Shown piece after piece: positions 45,365 to 50,625 of a DNA stretch of 64,000 nt. The stretch is from an uncultured Flavobacteriaceae bacterium (lineage in GTDB: Bacteria; Bacteroidota; Bacteroidia; Flavobacteriales; Flavobacteriaceae). Position 1 is the first letter of the stretch; each line of letters opens with the position of its first letter. The stretch is from positions 62,001 through 126,000 of the forward strand of contig CANMXP010000013.1 of NCBI GenBank assembly GCA_947501845.1, read 5' to 3'. A model generated the notes under the pieces. The model had not been told where the DNA came from. It did not search any database and saw only the letters and a list, made by a program, of their open reading frames with translations. A program made the translations under genes and the position numbers.

Positions 45365-46447
45365 TTAGCCATTAATAATCTTCTCTTGATGATTGATAGA
45401 CTCTTGGTGAATTGCTTTAAACATTCTTAATATAAACTCTTCACTAAGTCCGTGCTCTTCCCCTTCTAGAACCATTTTTCCTAAAATCTCGTTCCAACGT
45501 TTAGATTGCAATACAGCAACATTTTTTTTCTTTTTAAGAGCACCTATACCATCTGCCGCTACCATACGTTTTCCTAACAAATTAATAATATCATTATCAA
45601 CAACATCAATTTGTGCTCTTAAATTATTTAAAGCATTGTTATATTCTTCTTCAGCATCAGTCTCTTTTCTAATCTTAAGATCTTTCATAATTTGCACTAA
45701 AGTACTTGGTGTAACTTGCTGTGCAGCATCACTCCATGCATTTTCAGGATCGTGATGTGTTTCAACCATAAGCCCATCATAATTTAAATCTAAAGCTGTT
45801 TGCGAAACATCAAAGATCATCTCTCTATTACCTGTAATATGAGAAGGATCTAGAATTAAAGGAATATCTGGAAATTTATTTTGAAATTCGATAGCTAATT
45901 GCCATTCTGGAATGTTTCTGTATTTGGTTTTTTGATACGTTGAAAACCCTCTATGTATGGCTCCAATGTTCTTAACACCAGCTTTGTATATACGCTCTAT
46001 ACCTCCTAGCCATAAAGATAAATCTGGATTTACTGGATTCTTTATCAGCACAGGCTTATCTGTTCCTTCCAAAGCATCTGCAATTTCTTGCATAATAAAT
46101 GGACTCACTGTAGAACGTGCCCCAATCCATAATAAATCAACATCATGCTCTAAAGCCAATTTTACATGGGCAGCATTAGCTACTTCTGTACAGGTTTTCA
46201 TACCCGTTTCTTCCTTTACTTTTTGTAGCCATTTTAAACCTAAAGCTCCAACACCTTCAAACATTCCTGGTCTTGTTCTTGGTTTCCAAATACCAGCTCT
46301 AAAATAGTTAGCATCTGTGTCTTTTAGCTCATGAGCTATTTTTAATACTTGCTCTTCTGTTTCAGCACTACAAGGTCCTGCAATAACCAAAGGATGATCT
46401 AAATTTAATGCATCCAACCAGTTTCTCATTTCTTTTTTATTTTCCAT
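45365..46447 (-). CDS. Bifunctional DAHP synthase / chorismate mutase
   Basis: The 360-residue fusion has an N-terminal class I-beta DAHP synthase (about 1-265; VIAGPCSAE, RAGIWKPRTRPG, IGARS, IHRGFS, DPSHITGNR, METHHDP) and a C-terminal AroQ chorismate mutase (about 270-355; LRAQIDVVDNDIINLLGKRM, IGALKKKKNVAVLQ). It catalyses the first committed step of the aromatic pathway and the first step from chorismate to Phe/Tyr. This domain order is known from Bacteroidota enzymes. It is the last gene of the attenuated operon, 20 bp after tyrA, so both entry and branch steps share one control. Confidence 0.95.
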   Translation of the reverse strand: MENKKEMRNWLDALNLDHPLVIAGPCSAETEEQVLKIAHELKDTDANYFRAGIWKPRTRPGMFEGVGALGLKWLQKVKEETGMKTCTEVANAAHVKLALEHDVDLLWIGARSTVSPFIMQEIADALEGTDKPVLIKNPVNPDLSLWLGGIERIYKAGVKNIGAIHRGFSTYQKTKYRNIPEWQLAIEFQNKFPDIPLILDPSHITGNREMIFDVSQTALDLNYDGLMVETHHDPENAWSDAAQQVTPSTLVQIMKDLKIRKETDAEEEYNNALNNLRAQIDVVDNDIINLLGKRMVAADGIGALKKKKNVAVLQSKRWNEILGKMVLEGEEHGLSEEFILRMFKAIHQESINHQEKIING

Positions 46448-46467: not shown

Positions 46468-47319
46468 TTAAGCTATTCCGTTTAAAATTTGTTTTATATG
46501 ATTCGTATTTTTCATTTCATTATAAACTTCTTCAAAGTCACCTTTTTCCATAAGTTCTTTAAATTGTTTTAGGTTATTGATATACTCTTCTAAAGTTTCA
46601 ATAACATTTTCTTTGTTTTGTTTAAAAATTGGGGTCCACATTTCTGGCGAACTCTTAGCCAAACGAACCGTAGAAGCAAATCCACTACCTGCCATATCAA
46701 AAATATCGCGTTCATTTTTTTCTTTTTCTATCACCGTTTTACCCAGCATAAAAGAGCTTATATGCGATAAATGCGACATATATGCTATATGTTTGTCGTG
46801 TGCTTCTGGATTCATATAACGAATGCGCATCCCTATATCTACAAAAAGTTTCAAGGCTTTTTCTTGAAGTTTAAATGCTGTTTTTTCAACTTCACAAACA
46901 ATATTAGTTTTGCCCTTAAATAAACCTGAAATTGCTGCACTAGGCCCCGAATGTTCAGTTCCGGCAATAGGATGCATGGCTAAAAAATTTCTACGTTTAG
47001 GATGGTTTTCAATAACCTTACATATGTCCACTTTAGTGGATCCTGCATCCACGACCAATCCTGAATCTGAAATCTTATCTAAAATAACTGGCAGTAACTT
47101 CACTGTAGCATCCACGGGAATAGATATAATGACTAAGTCGGCATTATCTATATCATCTAGTGTTGCTTTTTTATCAATTAAATTGAGTGACAGCGCTTCA
47201 TCTAGCGTCGTTTGCTTTCTGCTAATTCCATGAATAACCACATCTGGATCATTCTTTTTTATATCTATAGCAAGGCTACCACCTATTAATCCAACTCCTA
47301 TAATATATATATTTTTCAT
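46468..47319 (-). CDS. tyrA: Prephenate dehydrogenase
   Basis: The 283-residue enzyme oxidatively decarboxylates prephenate to 4-hydroxyphenylpyruvate for tyrosine. The NAD-binding motif GVGLIGGSLA is at the N-terminus, followed by the catalytic-domain segments HPIAGTEHSGP (with the conserved His) and SHLSHISSF. It lacks a fused chorismate mutase or ACT domain, in line with the mutase being fused to the DAHP synthase. It lies 94 bp after the aminotransferase gene, a gap that contains two small hairpins (47328-47358). Confidence 0.94.
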   Translation of the reverse strand: MKNIYIIGVGLIGGSLAIDIKKNDPDVVIHGISRKQTTLDEALSLNLIDKKATLDDIDNADLVIISIPVDATVKLLPVILDKISDSGLVVDAGSTKVDICKVIENHPKRRNFLAMHPIAGTEHSGPSAAISGLFKGKTNIVCEVEKTAFKLQEKALKLFVDIGMRIRYMNPEAHDKHIAYMSHLSHISSFMLGKTVIEKEKNERDIFDMAGSGFASTVRLAKSSPEMWTPIFKQNKENVIETLEEYINNLKQFKELMEKGDFEEVYNEMKNTNHIKQILNGIA

Positions 47320-47413: not shown

Positions 47414-48559
47414 TTATTTAACTCTTCTTATAGCTTCTTCTAAAACCTCGTTTGATGCGCATAACGAAAATCGTATATACCCTTCTCCTTTACTTCCAAA
47501 GATGGTTCCAGGGGTAATGAATATATGATTGTTTTTAAGCACTAAATCTATATATGCTTCAGCTTTTTCAGAGGCTGGTAATTTAGCCCAAACAAAAAGC
47601 CCTGTTGCATTTTTATCGTATGTACAATTTAACGCGTCTGCTAATTCCCAAACCAAATCTCGGCGTTTTTTATAAACACTATTTAGAGTTACAAACCACA
47701 TATTAGAACATTTTAAAGCTTCAATGGCCCCTTTTTGAATGCCATAAAACATACCAGAATCCATGTTACTCTTCACCTTTAAAATATTGTTTATATGCTT
47801 GCTATCCCCAACAACCATTCCCACACGCCATCCAGCCATATTAAATGTCTTACTTAACGAATTAAGCTCTAAACATACCTCTTTGGCTCCTTCTACACTT
47901 AATATACTTTTTGGATCGTCATTCAATATAAAACTATACGGATTGTCATTAACAATTAAAATATCATGCCGCTTAGCAAAAGCCACCAATTCTTCAAACA
48001 AAGCCTCACTTGGTTTAGCCCCTGTTGGCATATGCGGGTAGTTTACCCACATCAATTTCACGTTAGTTAAATCTAGCTGTTCTAAAGCTTCAAAATCTGG
48101 CAACCAATTATTTTTGGCATCTAATTCGTAAAAAACAGGTTTTGCGCCTACCAGCTTTGTAACAGATTGGTATGTTGGGTATCCTGGATTTGGAATCAAC
48201 ACCCCATCACCTTCATTTAAATACGCCATCGAAATATGCATGATACCTTCCTTACTTCCCATGAGTGGTAAAACTTCTGTGGAAGCACTTAACGATACCG
48301 AAAAATGTTCTTTATAAAATCCTGTTATAGCTTCTCTTAATTCAGGCAACCCCTGGTAGCTTTGGTATTTATGCGCATTAGGTGCCAAAAGCCCTTCTTT
48401 TATAGCTTCTACAACACGTTGTGGCGGCTGTAAATCTGGACTCCCAATACCTAAATTAATAATAGGTTTTCCACTGGTAATAAGGAAATTTACTTCTCTT
48501 AGTTTTTTTGAAAAGTAATATTCCTCTACTGTTTGTAATCTATTAGCAGCTTCAATCAT
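47414..48559 (-). CDS. Class I/II aminotransferase (aromatic operon)
   Basis: The 381-residue PLP enzyme has the lysine motif SLSKTFNMAGWRVG, the NPGYPTYQS and NDNPYSF segments, and the C-terminal RFSLC that holds the substrate-carboxylate Arg. Its place between pheA and tyrA makes it the likely phenylpyruvate/4-hydroxyphenylpyruvate transaminase of the operon. It overlaps the end of pheA by four bases (ATGA-type), so the two are translationally coupled. Confidence 0.92.
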   Translation of the reverse strand: MIEAANRLQTVEEYYFSKKLREVNFLITSGKPIINLGIGSPDLQPPQRVVEAIKEGLLAPNAHKYQSYQGLPELREAITGFYKEHFSVSLSASTEVLPLMGSKEGIMHISMAYLNEGDGVLIPNPGYPTYQSVTKLVGAKPVFYELDAKNNWLPDFEALEQLDLTNVKLMWVNYPHMPTGAKPSEALFEELVAFAKRHDILIVNDNPYSFILNDDPKSILSVEGAKEVCLELNSLSKTFNMAGWRVGMVVGDSKHINNILKVKSNMDSGMFYGIQKGAIEALKCSNMWFVTLNSVYKKRRDLVWELADALNCTYDKNATGLFVWAKLPASEKAEAYIDLVLKNNHIFITPGTIFGSKGEGYIRFSLCASNEVLEEAIRRVK

Positions 48560-49383
48560 AATTTAGCATTTTTATATTCACCCAACACTTTAAATCCTTC
48601 TCCCATAATATCAATTATAGATTTTGATTTTTTAAAATCCTCATATTTTTCAAAAGTAACGTCAACGAAAAAAGCATATTTCCAAGGTGTTTCAATGATT
48701 GGCAAGGATTGAATTTTGGTTAAATTCAATTTACAGTCACTCATCACATTAAGGATGGCCGCTAAACTACCTCGTTTGTGATCACTCTCAAATTTAACAG
48801 AGGCCTTATTGATTTCGCTTTCAGGCACTTCAGAATTTGTCCGCTTTACTATAACAAAACGGGTTTCGTTATGTTTTATCGTTTGGATACTTGTTGCTAA
48901 AACATCCAATTCGAATATATCGGCGGCCATTGTACTTGCAATTGCGCCAATGCCTTTAAGCTTTTTTTCTTGGATACGCTGGGCAACCTCGGCCGTATCT
49001 TTATCTTCTACCAATTTAATATGAGGATACTGCTTAAAAAACTCTTTACATTGCAATAATGCCATTGGATGAGAATACACCTCTTCTATGTCTTCTATAC
49101 GTTGATTTGGCAATGCCATTAAGTTGTGCTGAATATCTAAATAATGCTCGCCAACAACGTGCAAATCATATTTATCAATTAAAGCGTAATTAGGGATAAT
49201 AGATCCTACTATAGAATTTTCTAAAGCCATAATAGCGGCATCGCATTCTTTAGTAATTAGCGAATCGACACCCCTATCGAATGTTAGGCATTCAATAACA
49301 TCAACAGGTTTCTCAAAAAATTGTTGTGACACAATATGATGAAAAGATCCTTTTACTCCTTGTATGGCTACTACTTTAATCAA
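48556..49383 (-). CDS. pheA: Prephenate dehydratase
   Basis: The 275-residue enzyme converts prephenate to phenylpyruvate. It has the catalytic domain with IQGVKGSFHH, ALENSIVGSIIPNYALID and the NETRFVIV segment, whose Thr-Arg-Phe is the conserved TRF motif. A C-terminal ACT domain follows (about 195-275). The usual Phe-binding ESRP is QSLP here and GALV is GSLA, so feedback sensitivity may differ. The start is TTG at 49383: an in-frame stop lies 12 bases upstream and no ATG fits. It is the first structural gene behind the aromatic leader and attenuator. Confidence 0.94.
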   Translation of the reverse strand: MIKVVAIQGVKGSFHHIVSQQFFEKPVDVIECLTFDRGVDSLITKECDAAIMALENSIVGSIIPNYALIDKYDLHVVGEHYLDIQHNLMALPNQRIEDIEEVYSHPMALLQCKEFFKQYPHIKLVEDKDTAEVAQRIQEKKLKGIGAIASTMAADIFELDVLATSIQTIKHNETRFVIVKRTNSEVPESEINKASVKFESDHKRGSLAAILNVMSDCKLNLTKIQSLPIIETPWKYAFFVDVTFEKYEDFKKSKSIIDIMGEGFKVLGEYKNAKL

Positions 49384-49404
49384 AATTTCATTTTATTTTA
49401 TAAG

Positions 49405-49425
49405 ACCTCAATCTTAAATTGAGGT
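49405..49425 (-). promoter_or_regulatory. Hairpin just before the pheA start
   Basis: On the minus strand ACCTCAAT (49425-49418) pairs perfectly with ATTGAGGT (49412-49405) around TTAAG, and ends 21 bp before the TTG start of pheA. It has no U-run. It may set up translation initiation or mRNA processing behind the attenuator; nothing in the sequence proves a role. Confidence 0.5.
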
Positions 49426-49445
49426 TGTTCAACTAAAAGTTAAAC

Positions 49446-49474
49446 AAAAAAAAGTCCCGATTTTCATCGAGACT
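49446..49474 (-). terminator. Attenuator terminator of the Phe/Tyr operon
   Basis: On the minus strand AGTCTCGAT (49474-49466) pairs with ATCGGGACT (49461-49453) through nine pairs, one of them U·G, around a GAAA tetraloop. It is followed at once by seven more T (49452-49446). It lies between the leader peptide and pheA, 63 bp before the start codon. A terminator in front of a biosynthetic operon, behind a peptide full of the product amino acids, is the layout of an attenuator. The plus strand has a C·A mismatch in the stem, so the structure works only in the minus-strand RNA. Confidence 0.88.
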
Positions 49475-49499
49475 CATATTTAAAATTTATAGTTATAAA

Positions 49500-49583
49500 T
49501 TATACATACAACGTCTCGTTCCTTTTGCTAAAAAAGAAGTAAAACCAGTTGTTATAATATGTATAAAATACTGTTGTTGTCAT
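49500..49583 (-). CDS. Aromatic leader peptide (27 residues) of the Phe/Tyr operon
   Basis: The ATG at 49583 opens a 28-codon frame ending in TAA at 49502-49500. The peptide has 11 aromatic residues of 27: five Phe, five Tyr and one Trp. Ten fall in positions 6-18, which read FYTYYNNWFYFFF. A ribosome short of charged tRNA-Phe or tRNA-Tyr would stall there. The last codons (AAC GAG ACG) contain the CGAGAC that can pair with GTCTCG in the terminator's 5' arm (49473-49468). The terminator begins 25 bp after the stop codon. A promoter with near-consensus boxes lies 11-39 bp before the ATG. All of these are what ribosome-mediated attenuation needs. That it works this way is inferred, not shown. 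Confidence 0.88.
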   Translation of the reverse strand: MTTTVFYTYYNNWFYFFFSKRNETLYV

Positions 49584-49593
49584 AATTATGAGG

Positions 49594-49622
49594 CTAAAGT
49601 AAATAATATTTTAAGAAATCAA
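49594..49622 (-). promoter_or_regulatory. Promoter of the Phe/Tyr operon leader
   Basis: On the minus strand TTG (49622-49620), an 18-bp spacer and TACTTTAG (49601-49594) fit the Bacteroidota consensus with one mismatch in the -7 box. Transcription would start near 49587, a few bases before the leader ATG, so the leader mRNA has almost no untranslated 5' end. The divergent gldA -7 box lies about 100 bp away. Confidence 0.65.
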
Positions 49623-49703
49623 AATTGTGGTCTTATTTTTTTTTGAATTTTTTAAAAGTTTTAAAGATTATACAACAAAACTTCTATAGCATTATATAAT
49701 TAT

Positions 49704-49711
49704 TATTTTTG
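49704..49711 (+). promoter_or_regulatory. -7 box of gldA
   Basis: TATTTTTG matches TAnnTTTG exactly and lies 17 bp before the gldA ATG. No TTG was found at the usual -33 distance, so only the -7 half is supported. Confidence 0.45.
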
Positions 49712-49728
49712 AATAAATAATTTTAATT

Positions 49729-50625
49729 ATGTCTATTGAAGTAGTAGGAATTTCTAAACGCTATGGCGAACAAAAAGCTTTAAGCAATATTTCATTTAAG
49801 GTTAACAAACCAGAAATCGTTGGGTTTTTAGGTCCCAATGGCGCTGGAAAATCTACCATGATGAAAATATTAACTACTTATATCAATCCTAGTGAAGGGG
49901 TTGCCAAAGTAAATGGACATGATATAAAAGAGCACATACAACTTGTTCAGCAAAGTGTTGGGTATTTACCAGAACACAATCCATTATACCTCGATATGTT
50001 TGTTAAAGAGTATTTAAACTTTAATGCTAGTATATATAAGGTCTCTAAACAGCGTATCCATGATGTTATTGAGCTTACTGGCTTAACCCCCGAAGTTCAT
50101 AAAAAAATAGGGCAGCTCTCAAAAGGGTATCGCCAGCGTGTTGGTTTGGCCAATGCTTTATTGCATGATCCTGATGTTTTAATATTAGATGAACCGACTA
50201 CAGGTCTAGACCCTAACCAATTAGTAGACATTAGAAATCTCATTAAAACAATTGGAAAAACCAAAACCGTATTTCTATCTACACATATTATGCAAGAAGT
50301 TGAAGCCATGTGCGATCGTGTTATTATAATTAATAAAGGTGAAATTGTCGCAGATAAGAAGCTTAGCGAATTACGCGATGAGAAAGAACAAATCGTTGTT
50401 GTAGAATTTGATTATCGCATTGAAGATGCTTTTTTACTTAAGCTTCCTAAAGTTCAAAGCGTCAACAACACACATGATTTTGTTTATGAAATTACTTTTA
50501 AAACTTCGGAAGATATGCGATCTCATGTATTTGATTTTGCTCACGATAATCAATTAAAAATTTTACAGCTTAACCAAAAGAATGCGAGTTTGGAATCTCT
50601 CTTCAGAGATTTAACATTAAAATAG
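49729..50625 (+). CDS. gldA: Gliding motility ABC transporter ATP-binding protein GldA
   Basis: The 298-residue ATPase has Walker A GPNGAGKST (35-43, Lys41), Q-loop, the ABC signature LSKGYRQRVGLA (130-141), Walker B LILDEPTTGLD (Asp154, Glu155) and the H-loop STHIMQEV. The C-terminal 80 residues (IVVVEFDYRIEDAF and onward) are the GldA-type extension. GldA works with GldF and GldG in gliding or related surface functions, but gldF/gldG are not adjacent here. It is divergent from the aromatic operon leader. Confidence 0.9.
   Translation: MSIEVVGISKRYGEQKALSNISFKVNKPEIVGFLGPNGAGKSTMMKILTTYINPSEGVAKVNGHDIKEHIQLVQQSVGYLPEHNPLYLDMFVKEYLNFNASIYKVSKQRIHDVIELTGLTPEVHKKIGQLSKGYRQRVGLANALLHDPDVLILDEPTTGLDPNQLVDIRNLIKTIGKTKTVFLSTHIMQEVEAMCDRVIIINKGEIVADKKLSELRDEKEQIVVVEFDYRIEDAFLLKLPKVQSVNNTHDFVYEITFKTSEDMRSHVFDFAHDNQLKILQLNQKNASLESLFRDLTLK

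Follow-up and report, generated by a model that had tools for sequence, protein, structure and literature searches.

We describe a leader upstream of the phenylalanine/tyrosine (Phe/Tyr) operon of an uncultured marine Flavobacteriaceae bacterium that is very probably a ribosome-mediated transcription attenuator. A first-pass annotation of the same DNA had proposed attenuation, and this reading is supported here because aromatic codons are kept as the leader peptide diverges, an antiterminator covaries with the terminator, the spacing is near-constant and the promoter is conserved without a Shine-Dalgarno sequence. Sequence comparison shows the leader ORF and its aromatic codons, both the terminator and the antiterminator, the spacing, and the promoter motif. 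The window, that is, the whole stretch of 64,000 nucleotides that was analysed, carries the leader on its minus strand from 49622 to 49446, where a Bacteroidota-type promoter, a leader ORF and an intrinsic terminator follow one another upstream of pheA. The promoter, the 27-codon frame with 11 aromatic codons and the terminator with its GAAA loop were each found where the first-pass annotation had placed them, and the gene order that it gave, pheA-aminotransferase-tyrA-DAHP synthase/chorismate mutase with the DAHP entry step included, agrees with Pfam. The antiterminator and the 1:2 hairpin were absent from that annotation and were found in the follow-up analysis. The features are as follows.

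49594..49622, minus strand: promoter, with TTG (49622-49620), an 18 nt spacer and TACTTTAG (49601-49594), assigned by motif conservation.
49500..49583, minus strand: leader ORF MTTTVFYTYYNNWFYFFFSKRNETLYV, 27 codons, 11 of them aromatic, conserved in relatives.
49530..49568, minus strand: regulatory codons 6-18, FYTYYNNWFYFFF, the putative ribosome-stalling region; aromatic density is kept while the peptide diverges.
49509..49551, minus strand: 1:2 hairpin, a predicted fold in which aromatic codons pair with AAAAGGAA and GAGAC.
49513..49518, minus strand: region 2, CGAGAC, the predicted antiterminator 5' strand, within the end of the leader ORF.
49466..49475, minus strand: region 3, GAGTCTCGAT, terminator 5' arm and predicted antiterminator 3' strand, with the core GTCTCG at 49473-49468.
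49446..49461, minus strand: region 4, ATCGGGACTT (49461-49452), the intrinsic terminator 3' arm, with the U tract to 49446.
48556..49383, minus strand: pheA, prephenate dehydratase, with a TTG start (Pfam PF00800, 183.7 bits).
47414..48559, minus strand: class I/II aminotransferase (Pfam PF00155).
46468..47319, minus strand: tyrA, prephenate dehydrogenase (Pfam PF02153, PF20463).
45365..46447, minus strand: DAHP synthase fused to chorismate mutase (Pfam PF00793, PF01817).

The promoter motif lies 10 nt from the leader ATG, the leader stop 24 nt from the terminator hairpin and 116 nt from pheA, and the end of the U tract 62 nt from the pheA TTG start (49383). The terminator (49475-49452, minus strand) is GAGTCTCGAT-GAAA-ATCGGGACTT, with 10 pairs, a GAAA loop and a U tract to 49446; it is the sole terminator-like site in 49001-50000, where shuffles average 0.2, and the 217-nt leader fold is 5.2 standard deviations more stable than shuffles. 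Between this terminator and pheA are two extra hairpins (GTTTAACTTTTAGTTGAAC, CCTCAATTTAAGATTGAGG; 49445-49406, minus strand), which by eye are similar at one related locus (L004), more or less imperfect at three (L002, L003, L007) and not seen at two (L009, L012). The aminotransferase, tyrA and DAHP synthase/chorismate mutase genes lie 3' of pheA in 78 of 80 named pheA loci, kept from 318 relatives found, the other two loci being incomplete. An ABC-transporter ATPase gene (49729-50625, plus strand) is divergent from the operon in the window and divergent upstream in 79 of the 80 named relatives.

The leader of the window has a best density of 10 aromatic codons in 13. When the 550 nt upstream of pheA were subjected to 1000 dinucleotide shuffles and the best ORF was scored each time, the maximum was 8 in 13, reached by 4 of the 1000. 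A lack of conservation of the aromatic codons in relatives had been set beforehand as the refuting outcome, and the codons are conserved: in 80/80 named loci, the nearest of which include Flavivirga (96% PheA identity), an ATG ORF upstream of pheA has 8 or more aromatic codons in 13, and among 100 further genera of the family, taken from 178 genomes with pheA, 98 reach 7 or more of 13 and 95 reach 8 or more. This family set omits the 30 best rows, which are near-duplicates of the named set, and the remaining list was not sampled. On the reverse strand at least 7 of 13 was reached in 4/100 family genera and 2/80 named loci and at least 8 in 1/100 family genera; dinucleotide shuffles of the family regions gave 16 and 4 per 1000 at the two thresholds, and a same-strand composition control that counted Ile, Asn and Lys gave 18/100 and 6/100 family genera. 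The two family genera without an aromatic leader are L183 and L266; at L183 (G013), tandem terminator-like units with the hairpin ATCCCGCC...GGCGGGAT were seen upstream of the leaderless pheA. A genome-wide pattern for Phe/Tyr codon runs gave 67 and 62 matches in the window's own genome against 65 and 67 in the reversed control and so had no discriminating power.

The leader peptide changes across genera, from YTYFNNWFYFFF through YFWNGFYFYFFF to YNWNFFYFFFYFF, with its aromatic codons retained. Codons for both Phe and Tyr are present in 178/178 leaders (98 family, 80 named), and a Trp codon in 72/98 family and 37/80 named leaders, so that, to judge from codon content, the constant signal is Phe and Tyr, with Trp frequent and dispensable. 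Of the signals suggested in the first-pass annotation, Phe and Tyr and perhaps also Trp, the first two have codons in every leader, but Trp is not a fixed part.

Downstream of the ORF, a scan found a U-tailed hairpin in 190 of 197 ORF-bearing loci, and six of the seven missed were recognised by eye. For covariation we aligned the window and 97 family genera, cut at region 2 (L203, the terminator of which was missed by the scan, was omitted). In this alignment the terminator is 97.9% paired, with 9/10 pairs changed on both sides and a covariation of 0.279. Region 2, CGAGAC, begins about 11 nt after the aromatic run ends, and its complement GTCTCG lies in the terminator 5' arm; the antiterminator so formed has 93.4% of cells paired and 5/6 pairs changed on both sides, and its covariation of 0.277 compares with 0.188 in shuffled alignments (0/500 as high) and a maximum of 0.102 in slid versions. 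A central base of region 3 (alignment column 69) covaries with both region 2 (A-U 47, G-C 44, G-U 4, unpaired 3) and region 4 (C-G 47, U-G 26, U-A 25), which is what a base with two alternative partners should show. With a separate alignment for each of regions 2 and 3, the top pairing excess fell on the predicted column pair, paired in 98/98 sequences against 75.5 expected. On this comparative evidence the antiterminator and the terminator would exclude one another.

Outside the family or in a divergent genus, the arms are replaced and nevertheless complementary (GAGCGGTC/GACCGCTC, AGAGG/CCTCT, GCCGGG/CCCGGC, AGGCGGGA/TCCCGCCT and AGGATTGT/ACAATCCT). In an arm-swap test with 2000 permutations over 115 loci (L203 dropped), the mean score of each locus with its own arm was 17.58 against a maximum of 14.82; over 20 hand-picked diverse loci, again with 2000 permutations, it was 18.98 against 16.80, and there the own arm ranked 1 or 2 in 15 loci, 3 in one, 7 in three and 14 in L286. 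Judged from the window locus by itself, the 6-bp antiterminator is weak (p 0.035), and values of 0.05 or less were obtained in 130/190 loci. Related sequences share changes, and a tree of 61 PheA proteins (the window and 60 family genera) places 6 changes at the region-2 base, 7 at its region-3 partner and 12 at the region-4 base. Independent pairs on this tree numbered about 2 concordant, 0 discordant and 2 unchanged from region 2, about 2, 0 and 4 from region 3, and about 3, 0 and 2 for region 4 against region 3; they point the same way as the covariation and are too few to decide, sign tests on them being not significant with so few events. For these reasons we rely on several results taken together: the shuffled and slid controls, the swapping of arms and the arms replaced at distant loci. 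In the window, regions 2 and 3 and all that lies between them are predicted to form a single long hairpin (-14.5 kcal/mol) that includes an AU-rich stem; family-wide this stem is hardly above chance (mean z -0.53, 9/98 at rank 0.05), and it was dropped as a general family feature.

Region 2 lies within the end of the leader ORF, and the question arises whether RNA or peptide is conserved there. The motif [CT]G[AG]G[AG][CT] is present at region 2 in 73 of 99 family loci (window included), in frame 2 in 38, frame 1 in 32 and frame 0 in 3, and since it thus occurs in all three reading frames, the alignments indicate that region 2 is conserved as RNA and not as peptide. These observations bear on an arrest peptide, in which a TnaC-like nascent chain would stall the ribosome in response to a free aromatic amino acid and not to the supply of charged tRNA. 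Such a peptide would account for the tail SKRNEALYV, which is conserved in the nearest genera (SKRNE-A/T-LYV near the window); elsewhere, however, the tail is swapped for KRGTGLL or KSRD while the RNA motif stays. Between the SKRNE-type and KRGTGLL tails the nucleotides are nearly identical (AGGAACGAGAC, GGAACGGGACT) and read in a different frame. The changed tail peptide and the presence of the motif in all three frames argue against arrest by the nascent chain, and the aromatic run is free to vary in order and length between loci; we consider this explanation very unlikely.

Across the aromatic codons and region 2, synonymous-codon randomisations fold less stably than the native sequence (mean z -1.63; 37/91 at rank 0.05 or below), which suggests that codon choice also keeps the predicted 1:2 hairpin; this hairpin would hide region 2 or pause RNA polymerase. 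Over all loci, the region 2 motif was found in 161/196; of these 161 loci, 146 have it starting 10-11 nt past the end of the aromatic run and 148 have it within -18 to +13 of the stop codon. The geometric argument, which takes the size of the ribosome footprint from general knowledge, holds in those 148 loci: region 2 would be exposed while a ribosome is on the aromatic codons and covered once it reaches the stop codon.

Translation of the leader would begin without a Shine-Dalgarno sequence. Among the window and 98 family leaders, a Shine-Dalgarno-like word precedes the leader ATG in only 1/99, and the motif TAnnTT[TA]G occurs within 60 nt upstream of the ATG in 95/99, against 8.7% in shuffles; TTG stands 16-21 nt farther upstream of the motif in 60/95. 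The first-pass annotation had described a near-leaderless mRNA lacking Shine-Dalgarno initiation. The absence of a Shine-Dalgarno word extends to the family, whereas 'near-leaderless', with transcript starts predicted from the motif, fits the group of the window, where motif and ATG are 10 nt apart, and 'short 5' UTR' fits the family, the distance being 16-19 nt in 55 of the 95 leaders with the motif.

A sensor independent of translation, such as a T-box or an aptamer, could drive the same terminator with the ORF incidental, and terminator and antiterminator would by themselves suffice for it. Against it, few features are more constant than the aromatic ORF, the spacer that separates region 2 from region 3 differs greatly from genus to genus, and no Rfam 15 family reaches its gathering score over the leader. 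There are sub-threshold matches only (Phe_leader RF01859, 18.7 bits against a gathering score of 55); Bacteroid-trp RF01692 has no match in the window, hence none at 49446-49622, and T-box models have none at gathering in the window and none up to E 10 in 49380-49640. We give such a sensor slightly less credence even than an arrest peptide. Reinitiation, by which the leader ORF would boost translation of pheA, has been proposed for leader genes near structural genes, and the part of PMC4833913 available to us reports a peak of such genes that includes Bacteroidetes; that peak lies at 11-14 bp (PMC4833913), whereas here the leader stop is 116 nt before pheA with the terminator between, and aromatic codons and antiterminator covariation would be left unexplained, so that we regard it as extremely improbable. 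That AT-rich intergenic composition yields Phe/Tyr-rich frames and hairpins by chance, as the AT-rich DNA and the 16 in 1000 shuffles reaching 7 of 13 might allow, is just as improbable and already refuted by conservation (98/100 against 4/100 on the reverse strand) and by the covariation.

Attenuation by a translating ribosome would then proceed as follows, where we infer the stalling, the footprint argument, the acting amino acids and the role of the 1:2 hairpin. A ribosome would start without a Shine-Dalgarno sequence close to the 5' terminus of the nascent leader RNA, from where it would translate the aromatic codons. With ample Phe-tRNA and Tyr-tRNA it would reach the stop codon and cover region 2 (CGAGAC), region 3 would pair with region 4, and RNA polymerase would halt at the U tract before pheA. 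When Phe-tRNA or Tyr-tRNA is short, the ribosome would stall on the aromatic run with the 1:2 hairpin opened, leaving region 2 free, as this starts about 11 nt past the end of the run; free region 2 would pair with region 3, no terminator would form, and pheA and the aminotransferase, tyrA and DAHP synthase genes would be transcribed.

Beyond the family, loci were taken for the best 30 of 56 matches in the order, 28 of them outside the family; the order-level families f2, f13 and f15 lie outside this sample. Leader and terminator are present in 3 of the 28, one in family f3 (L121) and two in f9 (L132 and L137), and a doubtful leader at L131 (f16) consists of an ORF above the density cut with no terminator. 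No leader was found in the 12/12 loci of f5, the other 11 of f16 or the single f12 locus. Twelve 600-kb genomes of f16 (L120, L122, L125, L127-L131, L135, L136, L139, L140) keep pheA with no convincing leader, and it looks as if control was lost in reduced genomes. In other orders of the same class, a leader is present in 11 of 15 loci (L270, L271, L272, L274, L275, L276, L278, L280-L283), these 15 being the ones with listed positions among 24 genomes with a match. Outside the class, one of five loci of the phylum has a leader (L286), and among 29 further phylum loci (L141-L169), a biased sample of the best-scoring prephenate dehydratase matches, none reaches 7 of 13.

The genome of the window has similar leaders before hisG (L299), trpE (L305), ilvD (L328) and the homoserine dehydrogenase gene (L353); the counts that follow are without a control comparison. 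The hisG leader is MNFIQLHHHFHICSQAK, and at least 4 His in 13 codons occur in 12/12 loci. For trpE the leader is MNTILNNTWWWSFRNLRS, with WWW in 11 of the 12 strong loci and WW in the other one, 12 weak second matches being left out. The ilvD leader MKKQILNIVSIIVIVIISQQ stands upstream of the gene in 9/9 same-genus loci; two loci from other families were also compared, with an Ile/Leu/Val-rich ORF (9 of 13) at L326 and just 5 of 13 at L333. A TTTITTT leader precedes the homoserine dehydrogenase gene in 6/8 same-genus loci; of two loci outside this set, L362 has a weaker one and L361 none. The own-genome his, trp and ilv leaders are followed by hairpins with a T-rich tail, and by eye the leader tail is complementary to the 5' arm. 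The trp leader of this genome is the Rfam family Bacteroid-trp RF01692 (59.1 bits, gathering 49), which matches only before trpE (L305, L304). Two riboswitches were also noted: a SAM riboswitch (RF00162, 62491-62602, minus strand, 87.2 bits), the only gathering-level Rfam match in the window, and a SAM-II riboswitch near ilvD in a same-genus genome (L335, 837-919, minus strand).

Ribosome-mediated transcription attenuation is established for pheL-pheA and trpL of E. coli. The present leader resembles them in an ORF with end-product codons, in alternative 1:2, 2:3 and 3:4 pairing, in a terminator before the first gene and, for pheL-pheA, in pheA as the first regulated gene; it differs in its mixed Phe and Tyr (and Trp) codons, in a region 2 within the ORF end, in the lack of a Shine-Dalgarno sequence and in an operon that takes in tyrA and DAHP synthase. 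A mixed aromatic sensor, an antiterminator strand within the ORF and initiation without a Shine-Dalgarno sequence would thus be the points particular to this system. In the enterobacterial Ile/Val/Leu and Thr/Ile leaders one leader likewise answers to several amino acids, the signals there being branched-chain or Thr and not aromatic.

Whether attenuation had been described for this group was left open by the first-pass annotation, and in part it had been, as shown by Bacteroid-trp in Rfam and, in their available portions, by PMC9723704 and PMC1173090 (Table 7). The Bacteroid-trp leader RNA, RF01692, appears in Table 1 of PMC2864571 (as far as that text is accessible); like the present leader it is a Bacteroidota peptide leader, but it has Trp codons and belongs to another operon. 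Structured, transcribed and conserved 5' elements precede pheA and hisG in Flavobacterium psychrophilum and other Flavobacteriaceae, and the authors point to strong indications of leader-peptide attenuation upstream of amino-acid operons (PMC9723704); the structured region before pheA is shared with our locus, and in the accessible sections of that paper no leader peptide, codons, antiterminator or covariation is given. In Bacteroides thetaiotaomicron an attenuator from a predicted-attenuator database lies upstream of pheA>hisHb>aroAIb-aroQ>tyrA, an operon with the same enzymes in the same phylum, for which the consulted part of PMC1173090, including Table 7, gives no leader peptide. Long 5' UTRs of the same species carry short ORFs 'reminiscent of leader peptides', candidate leader peptides of Bacteroidota with a hypothetical gene as the example; the main text, so far as it was available, mentions neither phenylalanine nor tryptophan (PMC7366714). 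The his genes of Bacteroidota are treated in PMC8305728, the available part of which mentions no leader. Searches of the open-licence literature turned up no account of the Phe/Tyr leader peptide, of its antiterminator or of its extent, which is no proof of absence.

The leaders provide a complete and testable model of control for the Phe/Tyr operon across the family, in a phylum where, to judge from the literature searched, such control is little worked out so far, and they could be annotated as an RNA family, no Rfam 15 family matching the leader of the window at threshold. They may also serve as natural sensors of how closely transcription and translation are coupled in bacteria that initiate without a Shine-Dalgarno sequence, as early loading of the ribosome and its closeness to RNA polymerase would be required. 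Uncoupled 'runaway' transcription may be widespread, according to the evidence reviewed in the portion of PMC7858274 that was available, and a switch driven by the ribosome would therefore be a useful probe in this phylum. Tentatively, and with rather less than even confidence, we suggest that one leader integrates the charging of all aromatic tRNAs (Phe, Tyr and often Trp) for an operon to which the DAHP entry step belongs, and that, alongside the leaders of his, trp, ilv and thr, it may reflect attenuation as a main and old mode of amino-acid control in the class Bacteroidia, one that works on short, at times nearly leaderless, 5' ends lacking a Shine-Dalgarno sequence. If this is true, such 5' ends would demand a pioneering ribosome close behind RNA polymerase in the phylum.
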